In this document: positions 1,567 to 16,156 of the stretch, in pieces
Layout: each line of letters opens with the position of its first letter
How positions within the stretch are numbered: the stretch's first letter is position 1
Source: a virus
Length of the DNA stretch: 27,437 nt
Strand: one strand, 5' to 3'
IMG/VR virus record: IMGVR_UViG_3300031857_001098
Location: 1-27,437 of that record
The notes under the pieces: model-generated
What the model was told of the DNA's origin: nothing
What the model saw: only the letters and a program-made list of their open reading frames with translations
Database searches by the model: none
Program-made: the position numbers and the translations under genes

Positions 1567-1610
1567 GAGTGTGTGTCCGGGTAAGGGCTGGACGAGAGCA
1601 AATTAGCAGG

Positions 1611-1830
1611 ATGAAGGCAAGGTGAGGGCAAAACCCCAGTAATTGCAGTGGTGAAGGCAACAAAGGCAAGATTCGCCTCTTTCTCTACACACGTATTACT
1701 TACCTCTTATATCTTTCTCATACACGTGCGGTAGGCACGGGTTATTAGGGTTCGACATAGTGTTTGCAAGGGGTTTGGCCTTCGACTTGGGTTCGATTTA
1801 GCCTCGAAACGAAGGCAAGTTGCCTTCACC
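1611..1830. repeat. GAAGGCAA repeat cluster, candidate replication origin
   Basis: The gap between the primase stop and the next leftward gene holds copies of GAAGGCAA at 1613-1620, 1653-1660 and 1811-1818. Near copies lie at 1624-1631 (GAGGGCAA) and 1662-1669 (AAAGGCAA). Reverse-strand copies lie at 1820-1827 and, just inside the primase gene, at 1873-1880. The copies at 1811 and 1820 form a perfect palindrome with a single G in the middle. Between the copies, about 1678-1728 is clearly A+T-rich compared with its surroundings. Short iterated sites plus an A+T-rich stretch beside a primase-helicase gene are the usual anatomy of a phage origin. That it acts as one is inference. Confidence 0.45.
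1778..1816 (-). terminator. Nested hairpin after the primase gene
   Basis: Outer arms GCCTTCG (1778-1784) and CGAAGGC (1810-1816) enclose inner arms TTCGA (1792-1796) and TCGAA (1804-1808). It begins 10 nt beyond the primase stop on the transcribed strand. There is no U-tract, so it may be a Rho-independent-like stop, an mRNA-protecting stem or part of the origin. The outer arms overlap the GAAGGCAA repeats. Confidence 0.35.
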
Positions 1831-4225
1831 CGATCGAGGGTGGAATTTGGACGCCGACAAGGGTCACCGTTCTTGCCTTCGCATCTCGGGTCGTCTTCAA
1901 CTCGGGGAACACCACCTGCAGGCGCTGCACGAGCAGCCTCGATGCCTTGACCGGGGGGTCGTTCGGTGGATCGATGACCCACCTGCCATTGCCGTCCTTG
2001 AAGCCCTCTTCCTGGTACCAGCGGCACAGATGCGCCCAGACCGCCAGCAGGGGTGTCTCAGCCTCTTCCTCCCACTGAAGCCCCACCTCATCGCAGAAGT
2101 CCCAGAGGTGGCTGCCCTTGCGTCTGACAGCCTTCATAGCCTCCCGACCGGTCTCGTAGTCAATGCCGTGCTCTACCGCCAGCTGCAGGCCCTCTAGGAG
2201 CCAGTTGAGGAAGGCTGGGCAGATCTGGGTGGAGATGAACTCGGGGTCGTCCTTCAGGCGTGGATCGGCCTTGATGTGGTCGGGCCTTGTCGGCACCGAC
2301 ATGTAGGTGCGTCTGAACTGGAAGACGTGAAAGCGGGTCTCGATGGCGGCCTGCTCACCGGTCAGGGATGGCTCCTTGTTGAGATTGAAGACGAACAGGC
2401 AGTTAGGGGTGAAGGTGGACTCCTGGATCCCCTTCACCTCCCATGCCAGCTCTTCGCCTGAGATGGCGGACTTGAGTGCCTGCAGGCTGTCGATGTGAAC
2501 GAACTGGCTGTTCTCGGAAGACCAGTTGATTGAGGCGTCGCGGAGGGGTGCGATGGGGAATTTCCGGCCTTGGTCGTACTGGCGGAAATCGGCAAGGGTG
2601 CAGGAGCTGAAGTTGCGAGCGCCGAGGGTGTTGCGGAGCGCAGTGCGGATGGTGTCCTTGCCGTTGGAACCGGAACCGATCATGAGCAGCGCCCTGGGAC
2701 GGCCGCGTTTGGCGCGATAGGTGGCGAGATCTAGGGATGAACCGAGGATGCGCTGGATGGTGTCCTGATCGGTTGGCTCTACCGCCTCCAGCAGGGTGTG
2801 GAGGTATTTCGGATCAGCGTCCGGGTCGTAGTCGTAGCTGGTGACGTAGGTGAAGGGGACGGAGGGGTCGTGGGGTGAGAAGTCCAGCTCAAAGCGGCCG
2901 TGGTTCCAGTGCCAGCTGACGACACCATTGCGGCAGTTGACGGCATTGGGTGGGTTGACTTCGCAGCTACCGAGCCGGTCGCGGAACCATGCGAGGGACT
3001 CGGCTACATAGCGAGGGCGTGCCCATGGATGGATGATCGGACCGTTTTTGCCATCGCGGGCCTCAAGGGTTGACAGGAAATGGGCGAGCTGGGGCGTGAG
3101 GTTGGAATCGGGAACGGGCTCGTAGTGGGTGTCGTTCCAACGATGAAAGATGTTGTCGTGACAGATCCAACGATCCTTGGGGTAGCGAAAGACGCCTTTA
3201 AGCACCTCCGGGAGATAGTCAGCGGTCTTGCTGCCGAGCTGCGTGTTGATCACATCCACCATGTCGAGGGCGGATGCAGCGGGGACTTTGCGGACCACCT
3301 TCATGGCGGAAGGCGGCTGCCAGCCGTGCTGCTTGGCGAAATACCAGAAGGTGCCGGCAGTAATGCGTTCACCGCCTGAACGTGCAACCTGTTCGATCTC
3401 TGCAAACAGGGGGCTGTGCTTGGCCATGAGGCCCTTGGCGTAGTCGATGGTGCCGCCGGCTTCTTCGCACGCCTTGATGAGGCCCCAAAGCAGGTTGCGA
3501 TAGAGGGGATATTGCTTTTGCTTGGGCACTGCTGCGGGGATGCAGCTGAGTGCGTCTTCGACTTGGCTGAGGGGGCGCGGGTCGTAATCGGTGAAGCGTT
3601 GCGCGCGTTCCAGCTGCTCCAGCGTTTCCTCTGCTGGGAGGCAGGCTTCGATCTGTTCGAGGGTGTAGAGCTGCTCTGAGACGTGAACGATGGAAGCCTG
3701 GGCGCCGAGGGTGCCATCAGCTGAGACGTGAAATGTGCCCGGTAGGCGCATCACACGGGATGGGTTCTTGAGGGTGCGATCGGCGTCCGCGTGATCGAGC
3801 AAGCGTGTCTGGATGATGCGCCACCGTTGAGGACTGATCAGCTCAGAGAGCACCCAGTAGTTATGGATGGACTTGCCGCCGGTATCGACTTGAATGGTGG
3901 GTTCTGGCAGGCCAAGATCACGCCATGCAGTAACCTGCCAATCCTTAGGGCGATCATCCCATTCACAGAAGAATGCGCGGCAGGCTGTGATTTCTGCGTC
4001 AGTGTCACCGCCATCGTTAATGACGACGTAGACGCCGCGTCCTTCTGCTTGCCAGTTCTCTACAACAGAGCGAGATGGTGGCGCCTTGCGTCCTGAATCG
4101 TTGGGTTTATTAGGGTGTCCTGAGGGGTAGAAACCACGCAGGCGCGATGTGCCTGTTGGCTTCCCGATGATCGTCAGGAACTCACGGATTGCGCCGAAAT
4201 CTGGTGTTTTCTGTAGATTTGTCAT
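1826..4225 (-). CDS. Primase-helicase: AEP-like primase with SF3 (D5) helicase
   Basis: 799 residues from the ATG at 4225; the open frame extends to 4435, but that part overlaps the VRR-NUC gene and reads as junk. The N-terminal part looks like an archaeo-eukaryotic type primase of phage and plasmid replicons: acidic pair in FFCEWDD (85-91), SIH of the sxH motif at 119-121, then NPSRVMRLPGT (154-164). The C-terminal half is a D5-like SF3 helicase with Walker A GSGSNGKDT (517-525) and an INWSSE Walker-B-like strand further on. It would unwind and prime the phage DNA. It is last in a leftward cluster after the SF2 helicase and VRR-NUC. A candidate origin follows its stop. No Shine-Dalgarno is seen; AGCCCTTACC precedes the start. 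Confidence 0.85.
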   Translation of the reverse strand: MTNLQKTPDFGAIREFLTIIGKPTGTSRLRGFYPSGHPNKPNDSGRKAPPSRSVVENWQAEGRGVYVVINDGGDTDAEITACRAFFCEWDDRPKDWQVTAWRDLGLPEPTIQVDTGGKSIHNYWVLSELISPQRWRIIQTRLLDHADADRTLKNPSRVMRLPGTFHVSADGTLGAQASIVHVSEQLYTLEQIEACLPAEETLEQLERAQRFTDYDPRPLSQVEDALSCIPAAVPKQKQYPLYRNLLWGLIKACEEAGGTIDYAKGLMAKHSPLFAEIEQVARSGGERITAGTFWYFAKQHGWQPPSAMKVVRKVPAASALDMVDVINTQLGSKTADYLPEVLKGVFRYPKDRWICHDNIFHRWNDTHYEPVPDSNLTPQLAHFLSTLEARDGKNGPIIHPWARPRYVAESLAWFRDRLGSCEVNPPNAVNCRNGVVSWHWNHGRFELDFSPHDPSVPFTYVTSYDYDPDADPKYLHTLLEAVEPTDQDTIQRILGSSLDLATYRAKRGRPRALLMIGSGSNGKDTIRTALRNTLGARNFSSCTLADFRQYDQGRKFPIAPLRDASINWSSENSQFVHIDSLQALKSAISGEELAWEVKGIQESTFTPNCLFVFNLNKEPSLTGEQAAIETRFHVFQFRRTYMSVPTRPDHIKADPRLKDDPEFISTQICPAFLNWLLEGLQLAVEHGIDYETGREAMKAVRRKGSHLWDFCDEVGLQWEEEAETPLLAVWAHLCRWYQEEGFKDGNGRWVIDPPNDPPVKASRLLVQRLQVVFPELKTTRDAKARTVTLVGVQIPPSIG

Positions 4226-4658: not shown

Positions 4659-6003
4659 GGGCGAAGTAAACGTGCTTCGCCCATCCAACTGGATTCTTCA
4701 TGCCTCTGGCTTGCCCGACAGCAATGAGTTGTTGCAGGGTGCGTGCTTGCCGGCGCTCATCAGTGCGTTGGCGCACTTCCTCGCGCTTGAGCTCACGCAG
4801 CTCGCCAGCCATCTCGCGTATGACCCGCGATCTGATCGGCACACAGCCTGCCCCACACACCGGACAGATCGGCGCGGGCTTGAATGCTGCGAAGCATTCG
4901 GGGCATGTACGTACAGATGGCGCTGGTGTGCCTTTGCTGCGCCGCATACGGTCATCAAGCGACCAGTCACGGTGATCATCGGGGAATCCATGCCGCTTGA
5001 CGTTGCCGACGTGATCAAGGATCACTGCGTGCGCCTTGCCAGGTGCTGGCCGCAGCACACGACCGACCTGCTGCAGGTAGAGGCCTAGTGATTGCGTGGG
5101 CCTGAGCAGGATGGCGCAGCTGGCGGCTGGCACGTCGAATCCTTCGCTGACCACGTCGACGGTGACCAGCACGCGGATGCGATGCGCGGCAAAGTCGGCC
5201 ACGACCTGATCGCGGTCTGGAGTATTGCCTAGCAACAGTTCGGCGCCAATACCTGCCGTCTTAAATGCGTCGCACACTGAGACGGCATGGTTGACATTGC
5301 AGCAGAACGCGATCGCTTGCTGGCCTGCTGCAAGGCGCTGGTAATGGCTGATGGCGTCACCGGTGACGGTTGGCCGATCCATAGCGGCCGCGGCCTGATC
5401 GTTGGCGTAATCACCACCACGGCTGCGGATGCCCTTGAGATCGGCCACCACTGGCGGCGCGTAGATGCGGGCTGGTGATAGGTAGCCAGTGAAGATCAGA
5501 TCGGCCACTGATGGGCCGAGCACCATGGTGTCAAAGGTGCCGCGCAGGCCGCAACCATCTAGACGGCATGGCGTGGCGCTGACACCAAGACGGTAAGCAT
5601 CGGGCCAGTGGTCGAGGATGCGCGCCCACTGGCCTGCAGTGGCGTGGTGGGCCTCATCAATGATGATCAGAGTCGGCTGCCAGTCCAACCGGCTGAGCCG
5701 GCGCGCGAGTGTCTGGACGGATGCGATCTGCACCGCGTGATCGGATGACGGAATGCCTGCGGCGATGATGCCGTGCTCGAGGCCGACCCATGCGAGCTTG
5801 CTGCTGGTCTGGTGGATCAGTTCACGGCGATGCACAAGGATCAGGACGTGGCGATTGCGTGCTGCGGCGTTGGCTGAGATCGCGGCGATGATTACCGTCT
5901 TGCCCATACCCGTAGGAGCCACCAGCAGCACTGACTTAGCGCCCGACTGATAAGCCGAGCGCAGATCATCAATGGCGCGGTCTTGGTAAGACCTCAGTTG
6001 CAT
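4645..6003 (-). CDS. SF2 DEAH-box DNA helicase with zinc ribbon
   Basis: 452 residues. Superfamily 2 motifs are in order: APTGMGKT (29-36, Walker A), DEAH (116-119), SAT (142-144) and QQVGRVLRPA (311-320, motif VI with the arginine finger). After the helicase core comes a four-cysteine cluster, CPEC at 367-370 and CPVC at 380-383, a likely zinc ribbon for nucleic acid binding, then a charged helical tail. It resembles the phage and type III restriction (ResIII) class of helicases. The ATG at 6003 overlaps the stop of the upstream fusion gene by 10 nt, and its own end overlaps the VRR-NUC start, so the three are translated together. Confidence 0.88.
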   Translation of the reverse strand: MQLRSYQDRAIDDLRSAYQSGAKSVLLVAPTGMGKTVIIAAISANAAARNRHVLILVHRRELIHQTSSKLAWVGLEHGIIAAGIPSSDHAVQIASVQTLARRLSRLDWQPTLIIIDEAHHATAGQWARILDHWPDAYRLGVSATPCRLDGCGLRGTFDTMVLGPSVADLIFTGYLSPARIYAPPVVADLKGIRSRGGDYANDQAAAAMDRPTVTGDAISHYQRLAAGQQAIAFCCNVNHAVSVCDAFKTAGIGAELLLGNTPDRDQVVADFAAHRIRVLVTVDVVSEGFDVPAASCAILLRPTQSLGLYLQQVGRVLRPAPGKAHAVILDHVGNVKRHGFPDDHRDWSLDDRMRRSKGTPAPSVRTCPECFAAFKPAPICPVCGAGCVPIRSRVIREMAGELRELKREEVRQRTDERRQARTLQQLIAVGQARGMKNPVGWAKHVYFARGQR

Positions 6004-8261
6004 GGCAGCAGCTCCGCCTGCTTTGCCGCTTGTGCATTGGTCAGGTTCTTGACAGCGCAGTTGAAGTAGCTGGGCTTCAGTTCAAAGCCAACGAAGCGGC
6101 GATCCATCTCAAGGCTGACGTATCCCTCGCTGCCGATGCCAGCAAAAGGGCTCAGCACGAGATCGCCAGGGTTGCTCCACAACTGCAGGCCGCGGCGGAT
6201 CACCTCGAGTTGCAGCGGGCAGATGTGGCGTTCATCCTCATTGGCGCGAGCGCTGCGGTATTGCAGCGTGTCGGATGGATTGATGTCCATCCATACGGGG
6301 CTGGCGTAGCGCTGCCAGATATTGATCGAGTCTTTGATCGCATCACCGGTCTTGGCTGGTGGGTTCTCACCTGCAAACTCAGTGAACGGGCCAGCTACCG
6401 GCTCTGCGTTGTCGCCCAGCTTGCGCACGGTCACCAGGTAGTCAGGGATGCCTTGGCGGCTGAGTGCAGAGTCCTTGCGCACTTGCTTGTGCAGCAGACC
6501 GATCGCTTTGGTGCGCTGCATTGCGGTGACGGGATCCTTCCAGATGCACACCTCGCTATGAAACACAAAACCAGCAGCCTGGAAGATGCGCAGCATGTCA
6601 CCGCGGAAGTCCTTCACACCGATGAAGCCATCGCGTTCTTTGCTGCTGGGCAGATTCATGCAATGGAAGCTGATCAGTCTGCCGGGCATCATCACGCGGT
6701 GCAGCTCGCTGGCGAGGAATCCAAAGTGATCGAAGAACTCCTGCTCGGTGCGGCTGTTGCCCATATCGCGGTCGCTGTTGCTGTAGGTGTAGAGCGACGC
6801 GAACGGCGGGCTGAAAATGCTGTAGTGGATCGAATCAGAGTCCAGCTGGCGGATGCTCTCAACGCAGTCGCCCATGTACAGATCCCAGCTGTCGCCGGTC
6901 TTGTGCTCAGTGATGTGTGGAGCGACCTGGCGCTGGATCTTCTTGAGTTGTTCCATTGTGGATTGCTTCATGATGGTGACCATTGATTCGGCCATGGCGA
7001 TGCTGTCCGCTTCCTTGCGGCGGATGTTGTCGATCACGCGGCCTTCTGCCACGTCGTAGATGATGTGAGCATTGACGGGTTGCTGTTGCCCGAAGCGCCA
7101 GCAGCGGCGGATGGCTTGATAGAACGCTTCGTAGCTGTGTGACAGACCAACGAAGGCGACGTTGTGGCAGCCCTGGAAGTTCAAGCCAAAGCCAAAGATG
7201 CTGGGCTTGCTGACCAGCACGCGGATCTTGCCGTCTTGGAAGTCGATGGCGGCTTGCTGCTTGTGATCATCCGAATCGGAACCACTGACCTCGACTGCGC
7301 CATGTATGGCAGCAGTCAGCGCCTTGGATTCATCGTTCAGGTCACACCAGATCAACCACTGCTCGGTGCTGTTGTTGGCCAGGGTGGCTGCTGCTGCAAC
7401 GCGCAGATCGAGCGATGCCTTGCGCACCTGCCGCTGATCGCTCAATGTGCGGGCCTCCATGGCGAATAGTGCCATTTGGCCAGCGTCATCAGTTGCGGCA
7501 TCACGTGGCGCCTCAACTGTGCGGTCACTGATCTGAAGTGCCGGCAGGATGAAGCTGCCATCGTCGTAGCCAAGGTCTGATGGCTTGCGGATCGTGACGG
7601 CCCAGCTGCAGACCCACTCCCAGAACTTGCTCCGCGCGTGACCCTTGATCCGCCACTTAGCGGTATCGCCGCCGTCATGCACAAAGAACATGGCCAGCAT
7701 CTCAGTGCGGGTCATCACGCCGATGAACTCGGCATGGTTGCCGAGCTCCATGTGGTCGTTCGGTGCTGGTGTGGCTGAGCAAGCCAGACGGAATGGGGTC
7801 TGCGCGAAGGACTCGATGATCTGATTGCGGATCTTGCCCGTATATGCCTTGAGGATGCTGCTCTCATCCAGCACCACGCCATCGAATGCGGATGGGTCGA
7901 AGTGGCTCAGCTTCTCGTAGTTGGTGATCGTGATGCCGGGCTTGACCTCGGCCTGCGTTGCAGCAAACGAGCATGGGATGCCGAACTTGCTGCCCTCGCG
8001 CACGGTTTGATGTGCAACGGCAAGCGGCGCCAGCACCAGCACGTTGCCTTTGGTGTGCCGGCAGACCTGTGATGCCCATTCGAGCTGCATGGCGGTTTTG
8101 CCCATGCCGCAGTCGGCCCAGATGCAGAACCTGCCAACACGGCAGGCCATGGTCACGATGTCCCGCTGAAAGGGGAACAGCGGCGCGGTGAAGGATGCCG
8201 GATCAAATCCTGCTGGTGGGCAGGCTGTGGACTTTGAAGCCAGAAAGTCTGAGTAGGTCAT
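5994..8261 (-). CDS. SNF2-like helicase fused to a DNA methyltransferase
   Basis: 755 residues from ATG 8261; the frame runs on to 8378, but the extra 39 residues lie in the divergent promoter region and look non-coding. The first 440 residues are a SNF2/SF2 helicase: Walker A CGMGKT (51-56), Walker B DESS (132-135, in place of DEAH), SAT (162-164) and motif VI QAIRRCWRFGQ (382-391). From about 455 comes a DNA methyltransferase of beta-type order: catalytic SPPF (484-487) first, AdoMet-binding SPFAGIGSEG (704-713) last. SPPF favours N4-cytosine, but N6-adenine is possible. No separate restriction subunit is encoded nearby, so protection of phage DNA or epigenetic marking coupled to translocation is more likely than restriction. 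First gene of the leftward replication cluster. Confidence 0.85.
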   Translation of the reverse strand: MTYSDFLASKSTACPPAGFDPASFTAPLFPFQRDIVTMACRVGRFCIWADCGMGKTAMQLEWASQVCRHTKGNVLVLAPLAVAHQTVREGSKFGIPCSFAATQAEVKPGITITNYEKLSHFDPSAFDGVVLDESSILKAYTGKIRNQIIESFAQTPFRLACSATPAPNDHMELGNHAEFIGVMTRTEMLAMFFVHDGGDTAKWRIKGHARSKFWEWVCSWAVTIRKPSDLGYDDGSFILPALQISDRTVEAPRDAATDDAGQMALFAMEARTLSDQRQVRKASLDLRVAAAATLANNSTEQWLIWCDLNDESKALTAAIHGAVEVSGSDSDDHKQQAAIDFQDGKIRVLVSKPSIFGFGLNFQGCHNVAFVGLSHSYEAFYQAIRRCWRFGQQQPVNAHIIYDVAEGRVIDNIRRKEADSIAMAESMVTIMKQSTMEQLKKIQRQVAPHITEHKTGDSWDLYMGDCVESIRQLDSDSIHYSIFSPPFASLYTYSNSDRDMGNSRTEQEFFDHFGFLASELHRVMMPGRLISFHCMNLPSSKERDGFIGVKDFRGDMLRIFQAAGFVFHSEVCIWKDPVTAMQRTKAIGLLHKQVRKDSALSRQGIPDYLVTVRKLGDNAEPVAGPFTEFAGENPPAKTGDAIKDSINIWQRYASPVWMDINPSDTLQYRSARANEDERHICPLQLEVIRRGLQLWSNPGDLVLSPFAGIGSEGYVSLEMDRRFVGFELKPSYFNCAVKNLTNAQAAKQAELLPCN

Positions 8262-8312
8262 AGGCGGAGGATCGGGCTGGGTGTCCCAGCGCTCGGCACA
8301 GTAGCGCAGCCT

Positions 8313-8351
8313 GCCGCAACTGCTAGTATTTGGCCGCAATTGCCCGCAACT
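8313..8351 (+). promoter_or_regulatory. Divergent control region with three CCGCAA(C/T)T repeats
   Basis: The 90-bp gap between the leftward fusion gene and the rightward exonuclease holds CCGCAACT at 8314-8321, CCGCAATT at 8334-8341 and CCGCAACT at 8344-8351. Spacings are 20 and 10 bp, one face of the helix. An extended -10 candidate, TGCTAGTAT (8321-8329), lies between copies one and two; no good -35 is seen. The repeats would overlap a start of transcription near 8336, as expected for an operator. The binding protein is unknown. Confidence 0.4.
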
Positions 8352-9188
8352 ATGGACAACACCGCGTATCACGCGCATCCGGCTGTCTCAAAGTCTCATC
8401 TGGATCTCATCGCGCGATCACCGCTGCACTACTGGTCGCGCTACCTGGATCCGAACCGAATCACGCCGGAACCCTCTGCTGCCATGCGCCTTGGCACTGC
8501 GCTTCACACACACGTGCTCGAGCTGAGCAGGTGGGATGAAGAGATCGCCGTAGCGCCTGCCATGGATCGCCGCACCAAGGCAGGCAAGGAGTCTTATGCA
8601 GCGTTCGAGGCCGCTGCCAAGCGCAAGACCGTGATCACCGCCGACGATGCCGAAGTGGTGATGGCTATGGGGCGCAGCATCATGCGCCATCCCGGTGCAG
8701 CAATGCTGCTAGGGCTGCCGGGCAAGGCTGAGACCACGCACATGTGGACAGACGCCACCTATGGGATGGAGTGCAAGTGCCGGCCGGATTGGCTGACCGA
8801 TGACGGCAGCATCATGGTGGATCTCAAAACCACCAGAGACGCCAGCCCGCGCGGCTTCATGCGCAGCATCGCTGATTACCGCTACCACGTGCAGGCCGGT
8901 TGGTATCTGAACGGGGTTGAGCAGGCCACCGGCAAGCGCCCTGATCAGTTCATCTTCATCTGCGTGGAATCGATCGCGCCATACGCCGTAGCGGTGTATG
9001 CCGCTGATGAGGTGATGACTGATCGCGGCTACGAACAGGCCATGAAGGATCTAGGCAAGCTGGCCGTTTGCCGTGCTGCTGACAGCTGGCCGAGCTACAG
9101 CGATCAGATCGAGACCATCAGCTTGCCGGGTTGGATGACAGGCGCCAGTGGGGCGCAGCAGCAGCTCACCGAGATCGAGACGTACTGA
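8352..9188 (+). CDS. PD-(D/E)XK exonuclease (RecE/YqaJ-like) for recombination
   Basis: 278 residues from ATG 8352; a TTG 12 nt upstream is less likely. Motifs of the phage recombination exonucleases are in order: GTALHTHVLE (48-57, with H52), CRPDW with D146, VDLKT (D157, K159) and YHVQAGWY (178-185). These match the RecE C-terminal and Cas4/YqaJ-like nuclease core, which resects double-stranded ends from 5' to 3'. Its stop overlaps the start of recT by one base (TGATG), the usual pairing of exonuclease and annealing protein. First gene of the rightward early operon, next to the CCGCAA repeat region. Confidence 0.85.
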   Translation: MDNTAYHAHPAVSKSHLDLIARSPLHYWSRYLDPNRITPEPSAAMRLGTALHTHVLELSRWDEEIAVAPAMDRRTKAGKESYAAFEAAAKRKTVITADDAEVVMAMGRSIMRHPGAAMLLGLPGKAETTHMWTDATYGMECKCRPDWLTDDGSIMVDLKTTRDASPRGFMRSIADYRYHVQAGWYLNGVEQATGKRPDQFIFICVESIAPYAVAVYAADEVMTDRGYEQAMKDLGKLAVCRAADSWPSYSDQIETISLPGWMTGASGAQQQLTEIETY

Positions 9189-13780: not shown

Positions 13781-13801
13781 ATCCTCGAGAAAGGTCTAGG
13801 C
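13751..13801. terminator. Two hairpins at the convergent junction
   Basis: ACCGCAGC (13751-13758) pairs with GCTGCGGT (13764-13771) over 5 nt. Next, GCCTAGA (13775-13781) pairs with TCTAGGC (13795-13801), with a further CCT/AGG pair inside. They lie between the end of the rightward train and the stop of the leftward HNH gene, so they may stop transcription from both sides. Neither has a U-tract. Confidence 0.45.
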
Positions 13802-14113
13802 CGCAAGATTAGCGCTGCTGGAGAGCCACTGCACGATCGCCCACTCGCCGAGTGCTGACCAGAACGGCTGCTGGCGGTACCAGTCCACCCATGGCTTGTG
13901 CCCCTTGGAGCAGTTGCAGCCCATGCAGCAGGCGACCATGTTGCTGGGCACCGTGAGCCCGCCGTGAGCCTTGGGGATGACGTGATCGAGCGTCGGACTG
14001 CGATCCAGATCCGCGCCGCAGTAGGCGCAGCGGTAGCTCCAGGCGAGAAGGATCTGATCACGCGCTGATCGCCGGGTGATCAGGCGCGTCTCATCAATGC
14101 GGTGTCGATCCAC
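13796..14113 (-). CDS. HNH endonuclease
   Basis: 105 residues from a GTG at 14113. Zinc Cys pairs C29/C32 and C63/C66 surround LDHVIPKAHGG with the catalytic D43-H44 and the VPSNMVACCMGC helix. A tail of W, W-YRQQPFWS and a helix follows, echoing the tail of the HNH gene at 46-375. Role as for other free-standing phage HNH enzymes: possible packaging helper, nickase or mobile nuclease. It lies between two transcription blocks, in a small leftward pair with the next gene, whose end it overlaps by 20 nt. Confidence 0.85.
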   Translation of the reverse strand: MDRHRIDETRLITRRSARDQILLAWSYRCAYCGADLDRSPTLDHVIPKAHGGLTVPSNMVACCMGCNCSKGHKPWVDWYRQQPFWSALGEWAIVQWLSSSANLAA

Positions 14114-15073: not shown

Positions 15074-16156
15074 TTAGTAATCCCAGATGACCTTAGGCCG
15101 CCCTTGCCGGATGCCGGTATGGATAAATCCTTTAGGCGCGCCCTTGCCGGTGCTGTATGGCCAGTGATTGATGCACCACTCCTGCAGCTTGTAGATATCG
15201 ACTCCCTGGATGTACCAGTCCACAGCGCCGACACCTGGCGCGTTGTAAAGGTGCTCCGATCCAGATGCGCCGCCAACTGAGCGATTGACAGCCGATGGCC
15301 TGAATCCGCTGGTGATGATGATCGCCTTTCCACCGAATGCCGTGCGAGCGCGCTCCAGAAATGCCGCCAACTCCGCTGCTGTGTCCAGCTGATACTGATG
15401 CTGGAACCTGCGCGCCTCCTGATCCAGCGCAAACTCTCCGAGCCTGATGTGCGGCGTGATGCGCGCGGTAAATGAACTGTTGGGACGCAGCTTGGCGGTC
15501 TCTGGTTCTGCCGCGGCCTGATGCTGCCCCCAGAGTTTGCCTTCTGCCCTGCGGCGCCGCAGCAGCCCAGCCTCCACGTTGGTGCCAGGGTTGCGGTAGA
15601 GCTCGAATGCTGCGGGCACTGCTGCCCAATCACGATCGCGCAGGCACCTGCTGATCGTCTCAAATCCAGCGGAGCCGTAGAAGCCAGCGCCCAGGTTGTA
15701 GGCGAAGCTGACCAGCGCAGATCGCTGGTTGTCATCCATCACATTCCAATGCGGCACGGTGGTGCGCAGCTTGTCTGTGATGCGATCGATCTCGAGGCGC
15801 AGCAGCATGTCAGCCTCGATCACATTGATCTTGTCGCCGCGCTTCACGGGTGTACCGCTGCTGTAGCGCGTGGTGCCATAGCCGATCGTCCAGGGCTCAC
15901 CACCGCTGAGCGGGTCAGGGTATGCGCTGAGGTGACAGCCCTCAAACTCCTTGATCAGTGCGATGGCCGCGGCCAGATCGGTCTGCTTGCCGTCTTGGCT
16001 CCAGGTTTGGAACCAGTCCCGATCGCGCCGCATCACAGCGTCGTAGGCATTGGCGGCCAGGTCAGCCTCTAGCTGCTGGATTGCTGCAGCCTGGTGCGGC
16101 TGGCCCTTGTAGTACTTGAACAGCTGTTGGAGTGTGATCGGCGCATCGTTCGCCAT
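15074..16156 (-). CDS. Bifunctional endolysin: GH24 lysozyme plus M15 peptidase
   Basis: 360 residues in three parts. Residues 6-56 (ITLQQLFKYYKG, then MRRDRDWFQTWS) form a short N-terminal element that I recall before cyanobacterial and cyanophage lysozymes. Residues 60-210 are a T4-type GH24 lysozyme: catalytic E72 in FEG, D81 in YPD and T90 in TIGYG. Residues 225-360 are an M15-type D-Ala peptidase: SGFRPSAVNR, then zinc ligands H302, D313 and H346. One enzyme would cut both the glycan and the peptide stems. There is no signal peptide, so release needs a holin; two small membrane genes lie just upstream. ATG 16156 is 3 nt after the stop of the 48-aa gene. Confidence 0.9.
   Translation of the reverse strand: MANDAPITLQQLFKYYKGQPHQAAAIQQLEADLAANAYDAVMRRDRDWFQTWSQDGKQTDLAAAIALIKEFEGCHLSAYPDPLSGGEPWTIGYGTTRYSSGTPVKRGDKINVIEADMLLRLEIDRITDKLRTTVPHWNVMDDNQRSALVSFAYNLGAGFYGSAGFETISRCLRDRDWAAVPAAFELYRNPGTNVEAGLLRRRRAEGKLWGQHQAAAEPETAKLRPNSSFTARITPHIRLGEFALDQEARRFQHQYQLDTAAELAAFLERARTAFGGKAIIITSGFRPSAVNRSVGGASGSEHLYNAPGVGAVDWYIQGVDIYKLQEWCINHWPYSTGKGAPKGFIHTGIRQGRPKVIWDY

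Follow-up and report, generated by a model that had tools for sequence, protein, structure and literature searches.

A candidate replication origin of PICI-like layout just past the primase-helicase gene of an uncultured tailed phage

Copies of the octamer GAAGGCAA are clustered around the 3' end of a primase-helicase gene in the viral record IMGVR_UViG_3300031857_001098 (the window: the whole stretch of DNA that was analysed, 27,437 b long and itself a fragment), and the question is whether this cluster is an origin of DNA replication. A sequence-only reading had proposed a candidate origin here, based on octamer copies on both strands around an A+T-rich stretch. These positions are borne out, with five exact copies and three one-mismatch copies at 1624(+), 1662(+) and 1776(-). 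That reading had also named equal density of the octamer elsewhere as an argument against an origin. Over the 27,437-b record, five of the seven exact copies are packed into 268 bp (1613-1880), and the only others lie at 15537 and 26822. In 2000 dinucleotide shuffles of positions 1567-1896, GAAGGCAA was absent from 1972 and occurred once in 28, against five copies observed, and the commonest 8-mer of any of these shuffles never exceeded three copies. In a test of 8-mer repetition as such, six other 450-b segments of the whole stretch also hold five copies of some 8-mer, and the case from the window alone therefore rests on the octamer-specific shuffles together with the relatives.

The array proper of the window consists of the copies at 1613, 1624 (one mismatch) and 1653, the A+T-rich centre, the copy at 1776 (one mismatch) and the palindrome at 1811/1820 (Table 1). 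The centre corresponds to the lowest-GC 60-mer (about 1668-1727). The perfect palindrome that two copies were said to form is confirmed: these copies are inverted relative to each other and 1 bp apart, and the hairpin fold of the pair has a z of -2.7. The accompanying statement that the repeats are not explained by coding stands for the intergenic copies and must be limited to them, because the copy at 1873-1880 is in frame and that at 1820-1827 overlaps the stop codon of the primase-helicase gene (1826-1828). It is uncertain whether the 1873-1880 copy is part of the array. An octamer is also found at -55 in L035, L036, L012-L014 and L039, and this copy may be explained by coding. The position of the AAAGGCAA copy at 1662 is not kept in relatives; the 1776 copy is the counterpart of a copy at +42 to +56 in near relatives. 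The array of the window is weaker than most: four exact copies lie beyond the coding sequence or at its border, and there are two near copies whose position is conserved.

Table 1. Octamer copies, A+T-rich centre and adjoining gene, in window coordinates
Feature	Position	Strand	Remarks
Outer iteron, distal arm	1613..1620	+	Exact GAAGGCAA; 11 bp beyond the 1624 copy
Second iteron, distal arm	1624..1631	+	One mismatch, GAGGGCAA; 29 bp from the inner copy
Inner iteron, distal arm	1653..1660	+	Exact GAAGGCAA
A+T-rich centre, candidate melting region	1668..1727	.	Separates both arms; 37% GC versus 59%
Inner iteron, gene-proximal arm	1776..1783	-	One mismatch, GAAGGCCA
Palindromic iteron pair GAAGGCAA-G-TTGCCTTC	1811..1827	.	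Exact copies 1811-1818(+) and 1820-1827(-)
Octamer copy within the primase-helicase reading frame	1873..1880	-	Exact; codes part of Ala-Lys-Ala-Arg
Primase-helicase gene, proposed initiator	1826..4225 (ATG at 4225)	-	AEP/PrimPol N-terminus, D5_N/DUF5906 helicase, C-terminal predicted winged helix
C-terminal domain (residues 706-799), proposed iteron-binding	1829..2110	-	Predicted winged helix; putative recognition helix 762-772

Homologues of the primase-helicase are encoded by 46 IMG/VR loci. In most of these, the most 8-mer-repetitive part of the locus is the stretch just past the primase-helicase stop codon, and in most loci tested a clade-specific octamer (GAAGGCAA, GGAGGCAA or GGACGCAA) is repeated there 5-12 times. 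The sequence-only reading had raised the prospect of relatives lacking repeats at this place; instead the repeats are present, with clade-specific sequence and conserved geometry. Neither this comparison nor the density test refuted the candidate origin, which they support. The repeats past the gene are degenerate in L016-L018, L034 and L037, and no clear array was found there in the more distant L042, L044, L045 and L050. Three cyanobacterial/Melainabacteria-type MAG relatives with 28-31% identity have no array, and by 7- to 9-mer counts no iterons stood out beyond the primase genes of S-2L, Arthrobacter phage Ascela, Vibrio phage Artemius and Microbacterium phage Floof. Other repeated octamers are seen just 3' of the primase gene in the more distant L046, L052 and L053, and for this reason the arrangement may reach beyond the clade of the window's relatives. 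Just past the primase gene, AGCCCACA was found in two distant loci and GTGTCCAA in one.

Array geometry was measured on 49 distinct arrays, whose shared ancestry means that the following counts are not independent trials. Copy orientation in the gene-proximal arm is 205:0, leaving aside the 49 palindrome mates, and in the distal arm it is 182:0 in the opposite sense. Octamer spacings fall at 10-13, 19-22, 29-33, 40-44 and 50-52 bp, with one at 59, and none falls at 14-18, 23-28, 34-39 or 45-49 bp; the spacings are thus close to multiples of the helical repeat. In each of the 49 arrays, the inner copies enclose a gap whose G+C content is below that of the locus. The window shares its 29 and 11 bp spacings with L035, L013 and L039. 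The geometry stays constant while the octamer changes, as the assembly of a protein on DNA would demand. The A2 alignment also contains a second conserved element, about AAACCCCTTGCAA..ACTA, which lies in the gene-proximal arm beside the inner iteron (window about 1742-1775) and has an apparent inverted counterpart in the distal arm (about 1625-1650).

The association with the gene was also approached by a scan that is independent of the protein. The palindromes GAAGGCAANTTGCCTTC and GGACGCAANTTGCGTCC, picked after seeing the relatives, were searched for in 2.9 million viral contigs and gave 89 matches, some of which are loci already known. A primase-helicase gene ends 7-20 bp away in 63 of the 89, that is, in all 63 of the primase-bearing matches, and the remaining 26 matches are without such a gene and have just 2-3 octamers each. 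All 62 arrays with at least four octamers (within 450 bp on either side) lie 7-20 bp past a primase-helicase gene. Satellites with an array and no primase gene were not found among the matches of the two scanned palindromes.

Because the same layout with clade-specific repeats follows the gene in dozens of relatives, the block at 1613-1827 is very probably a phage replication origin that is recognised by the product of the gene ending within it. Direct and inverted repeats also occur at packaging (pac/cos) and partition sites, and the block might be one of these; such a function is highly improbable, given that every scanned array accompanies a primase-helicase gene and that the neighbours of the block (a 146-aa unknown, a minor tail protein and an HNH nuclease) include no recognised terminase. 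Still less credible is an origin of the repeats in chance, in a mobile repeat family or as a by-product of coding. The 1873-1880 copy and part of another do lie within coding sequence, but the shuffles, the geometry that is kept as the sequence changes, the gene association in 62 of 62 arrays and the mere two stray copies elsewhere in the record all argue otherwise, and the relatives have already refuted this explanation.

The repeats could also be an operator at which the primase-helicase or a repressor controls transcription of the downstream gene, with replication starting elsewhere. The location of the block between two same-strand genes, upstream of the 146-aa gene, would suit this function, which is nevertheless unlikely. 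The next gene downstream is unrelated between clades, whereas the block stays with the primase-helicase gene; no sigma-70-type promoters or terminators were matched in the region; and an A+T-rich centre with an iteron set on either side is how PICI origins are arranged (PMC6092414). An Rfam search gave no matches. Comparison with relatives gives good support to an origin organised like those of PICIs in a tailed phage that is not a satellite.

One kind of evidence is not used in support of the origin. Cumulative GC skew, which had been suggested as a check, does not switch within the 27,437-b window. The detrended cumulative minimum does lie less than 2 kb from the array in five long close relatives (G001, G005, G008, G016 and G017), but a minimum near the array is seen in only one of ten further long contigs, and GC skew was dropped because of this inconsistency between relatives.

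The AEP part of the proposed initiator matches PDB 6zp9 (S-2L PrimPol) at 1.1e-33, and the helicase core matches PDB 7ola (SaPI5 Rep) at 9.5e-5 by phmmer and 0.0011 by profile. Pfam domains DUF5906 (2.9e-8) and D5_N (9e-4) were detected, and the PHROG match is DNA primase/helicase. In the AlphaFold2 model, pLDDT is mostly 60-90 in the C-terminal domain and about 30 in the poorly modelled helicase core. The C-terminal domain is a predicted winged helix and is probably DNA-binding; the Foldseek matches of the AlphaFold2 model, to vaccinia D5, MPXV E5 and winged helices, are not significant by E-value.

In SaPIs, Rep uses its C-terminal domain to bind the iterons of an origin situated immediately past its own gene, apparently as two hexamers (PMC7581432). 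For the PICI EcCICFT073, the gene plus ori was assayed for plasmid maintenance (PMC6092414). If the block is an origin, the phage protein would bind the octamers via its C-terminal winged-helix domain. On the precedent of SaPI Rep and the PICI origins, one helicase ring would then be assembled per arm, in opposite orientations, the A+T-rich centre would be melted and the two helicases would depart in opposite directions, with the AEP domain making primers and perhaps also DNA.

The closest parallel is the SaPI/PICI origin with its Pri-Rep initiator, which likewise lies directly 3' of the primase-helicase gene and in which an A+T-rich region is likewise flanked by two sets of iterons (PMC6092414); SaPI5 Rep (PDB 7ola) is homologous to the helicase of the window. 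The window phage differs in bearing tail genes, in having a primase part of the AEP/PrimPol type of S-2L, and in its own octamers, strictly inverted arms and palindromic pair just past the gene. A PICI, as a satellite, depends on a helper phage and is without tail genes of its own; a minor tail protein family is found in the window, and the phage is therefore not a PICI but only has a PICI-like origin. The PrimPol of cyanophage S-2L is related to the AEP part (39% identity), but its C-terminal part, unlike that of the window protein, has been described as VirE/papillomavirus-helicase-like (PMC8065100). Past the S-2L PrimPol gene, no octamer array of this kind was found, the top 8-mer count there being 3 and not outstanding. 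In SCCmec, the D5-related helicase Cch2 uses its C-terminal domain to bind direct repeats that lie beyond the 3' end of its gene (PMC7581432), but that origin has a single set of three 5-nt AAGTG iterons and the helicase has no primase fusion. ORF904 of plasmid pRN1 is also an AEP-helicase fusion with a C-terminal winged helix and an origin directly 3' (PMC4234260), which differs in being a 100-bp stem-loop without iterons. In satellite phage P4, too, a primase-helicase initiator, the alpha protein, is paired with a cognate ori (PMC6092414), but its primase is of the TOPRIM type (PMC4234260) rather than AEP.

How closely is the octamer tied to the protein? On the primase tree, the octamer types require 5 changes, against a possible minimum of 4 and a value of 21.7 after shuffling. 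Over most of the gene, the nearest relative of the window is L008/L033 (84% identity), and the difference between the GAAGGCAA of the window and the GGAGGCAA of this sister is a concerted one. Residues 330-640 of the window protein group with L008, the alternative being rejected (AU p=0.0002). Residues 690-799 instead group with the GAAGGCAA phages L035, L036, L012 and L013, with moderate support (91/90) and with groups that were named after seeing the data, and a clade with L008 is rejected (AU p=0.006). By these sequence comparisons the window primase-helicase gene is a mosaic, and it looks as if recombination jointly exchanged the C-terminal domain and the origin that matches it. Residues about 176-350 are about 64-88% identical to L008 and mostly only 8-40% identical to L036, L035, L012, L039 and L037, a contrast that points to an independent exchange of domains between the AEP and helicase parts.

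Near GAAGGCAA and GGAGGCAA proteins can be told apart at a set of positions, about half of which fall within the last 80 residues. Among these positions, Gln/Pro767 lies within the predicted recognition helix and is not confounded by the coding octamer copy, but it was rejected as a universal specificity rule, since L009-L015 have GAAGGCAA with Pro767. Ala784 tracks the octamer and was also rejected as a specificity residue; it is not independent, because the octamer copy at 1873-1880 itself encodes it. A more tentative proposal, which we regard as possible rather than probable, is that the C-terminal domain makes up, with the iteron array, an exchangeable module for specificity, and that phages of this family exchange both together, giving incompatibility-like groups. 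If so, a small number of residues, Gln/Pro 767 among them, should tell the groups GAAGGCAA, GGAGGCAA and GGACGCAA apart.

The searched phage collection includes no cultured relative covering 80% of the primase-helicase and no close isolate. The locus supplies a predicted pair of origin and initiator for this family of uncultured phages. The layout has been described as a peculiarity of PICIs and would now extend to ordinary tailed phages, and origins in related phages could be found simply by inspecting the stretch just past the primase-helicase gene. The clades also provide naturally matched sets of initiator domains and octamers, from which a recognition code might be derived.

The gene neighbourhood of the window includes a VRR nuclease, SF2 helicases, an exonuclease and RecT, and its resemblance to the similar neighbourhood of S-2L suggests a cyanobacterial host. 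In one reading frame (5994-8378), an SF2-type helicase is followed at the C-terminal end by an N6/N4 DNA methylase domain, and the endolysin (15074-16156) is a single protein that unites a phage lysozyme domain with a peptidase M15 domain at its C-terminus. An HNH endonuclease gene lies at 46-375, and a second reading frame at 13796-14113 is HNH-like by eye.
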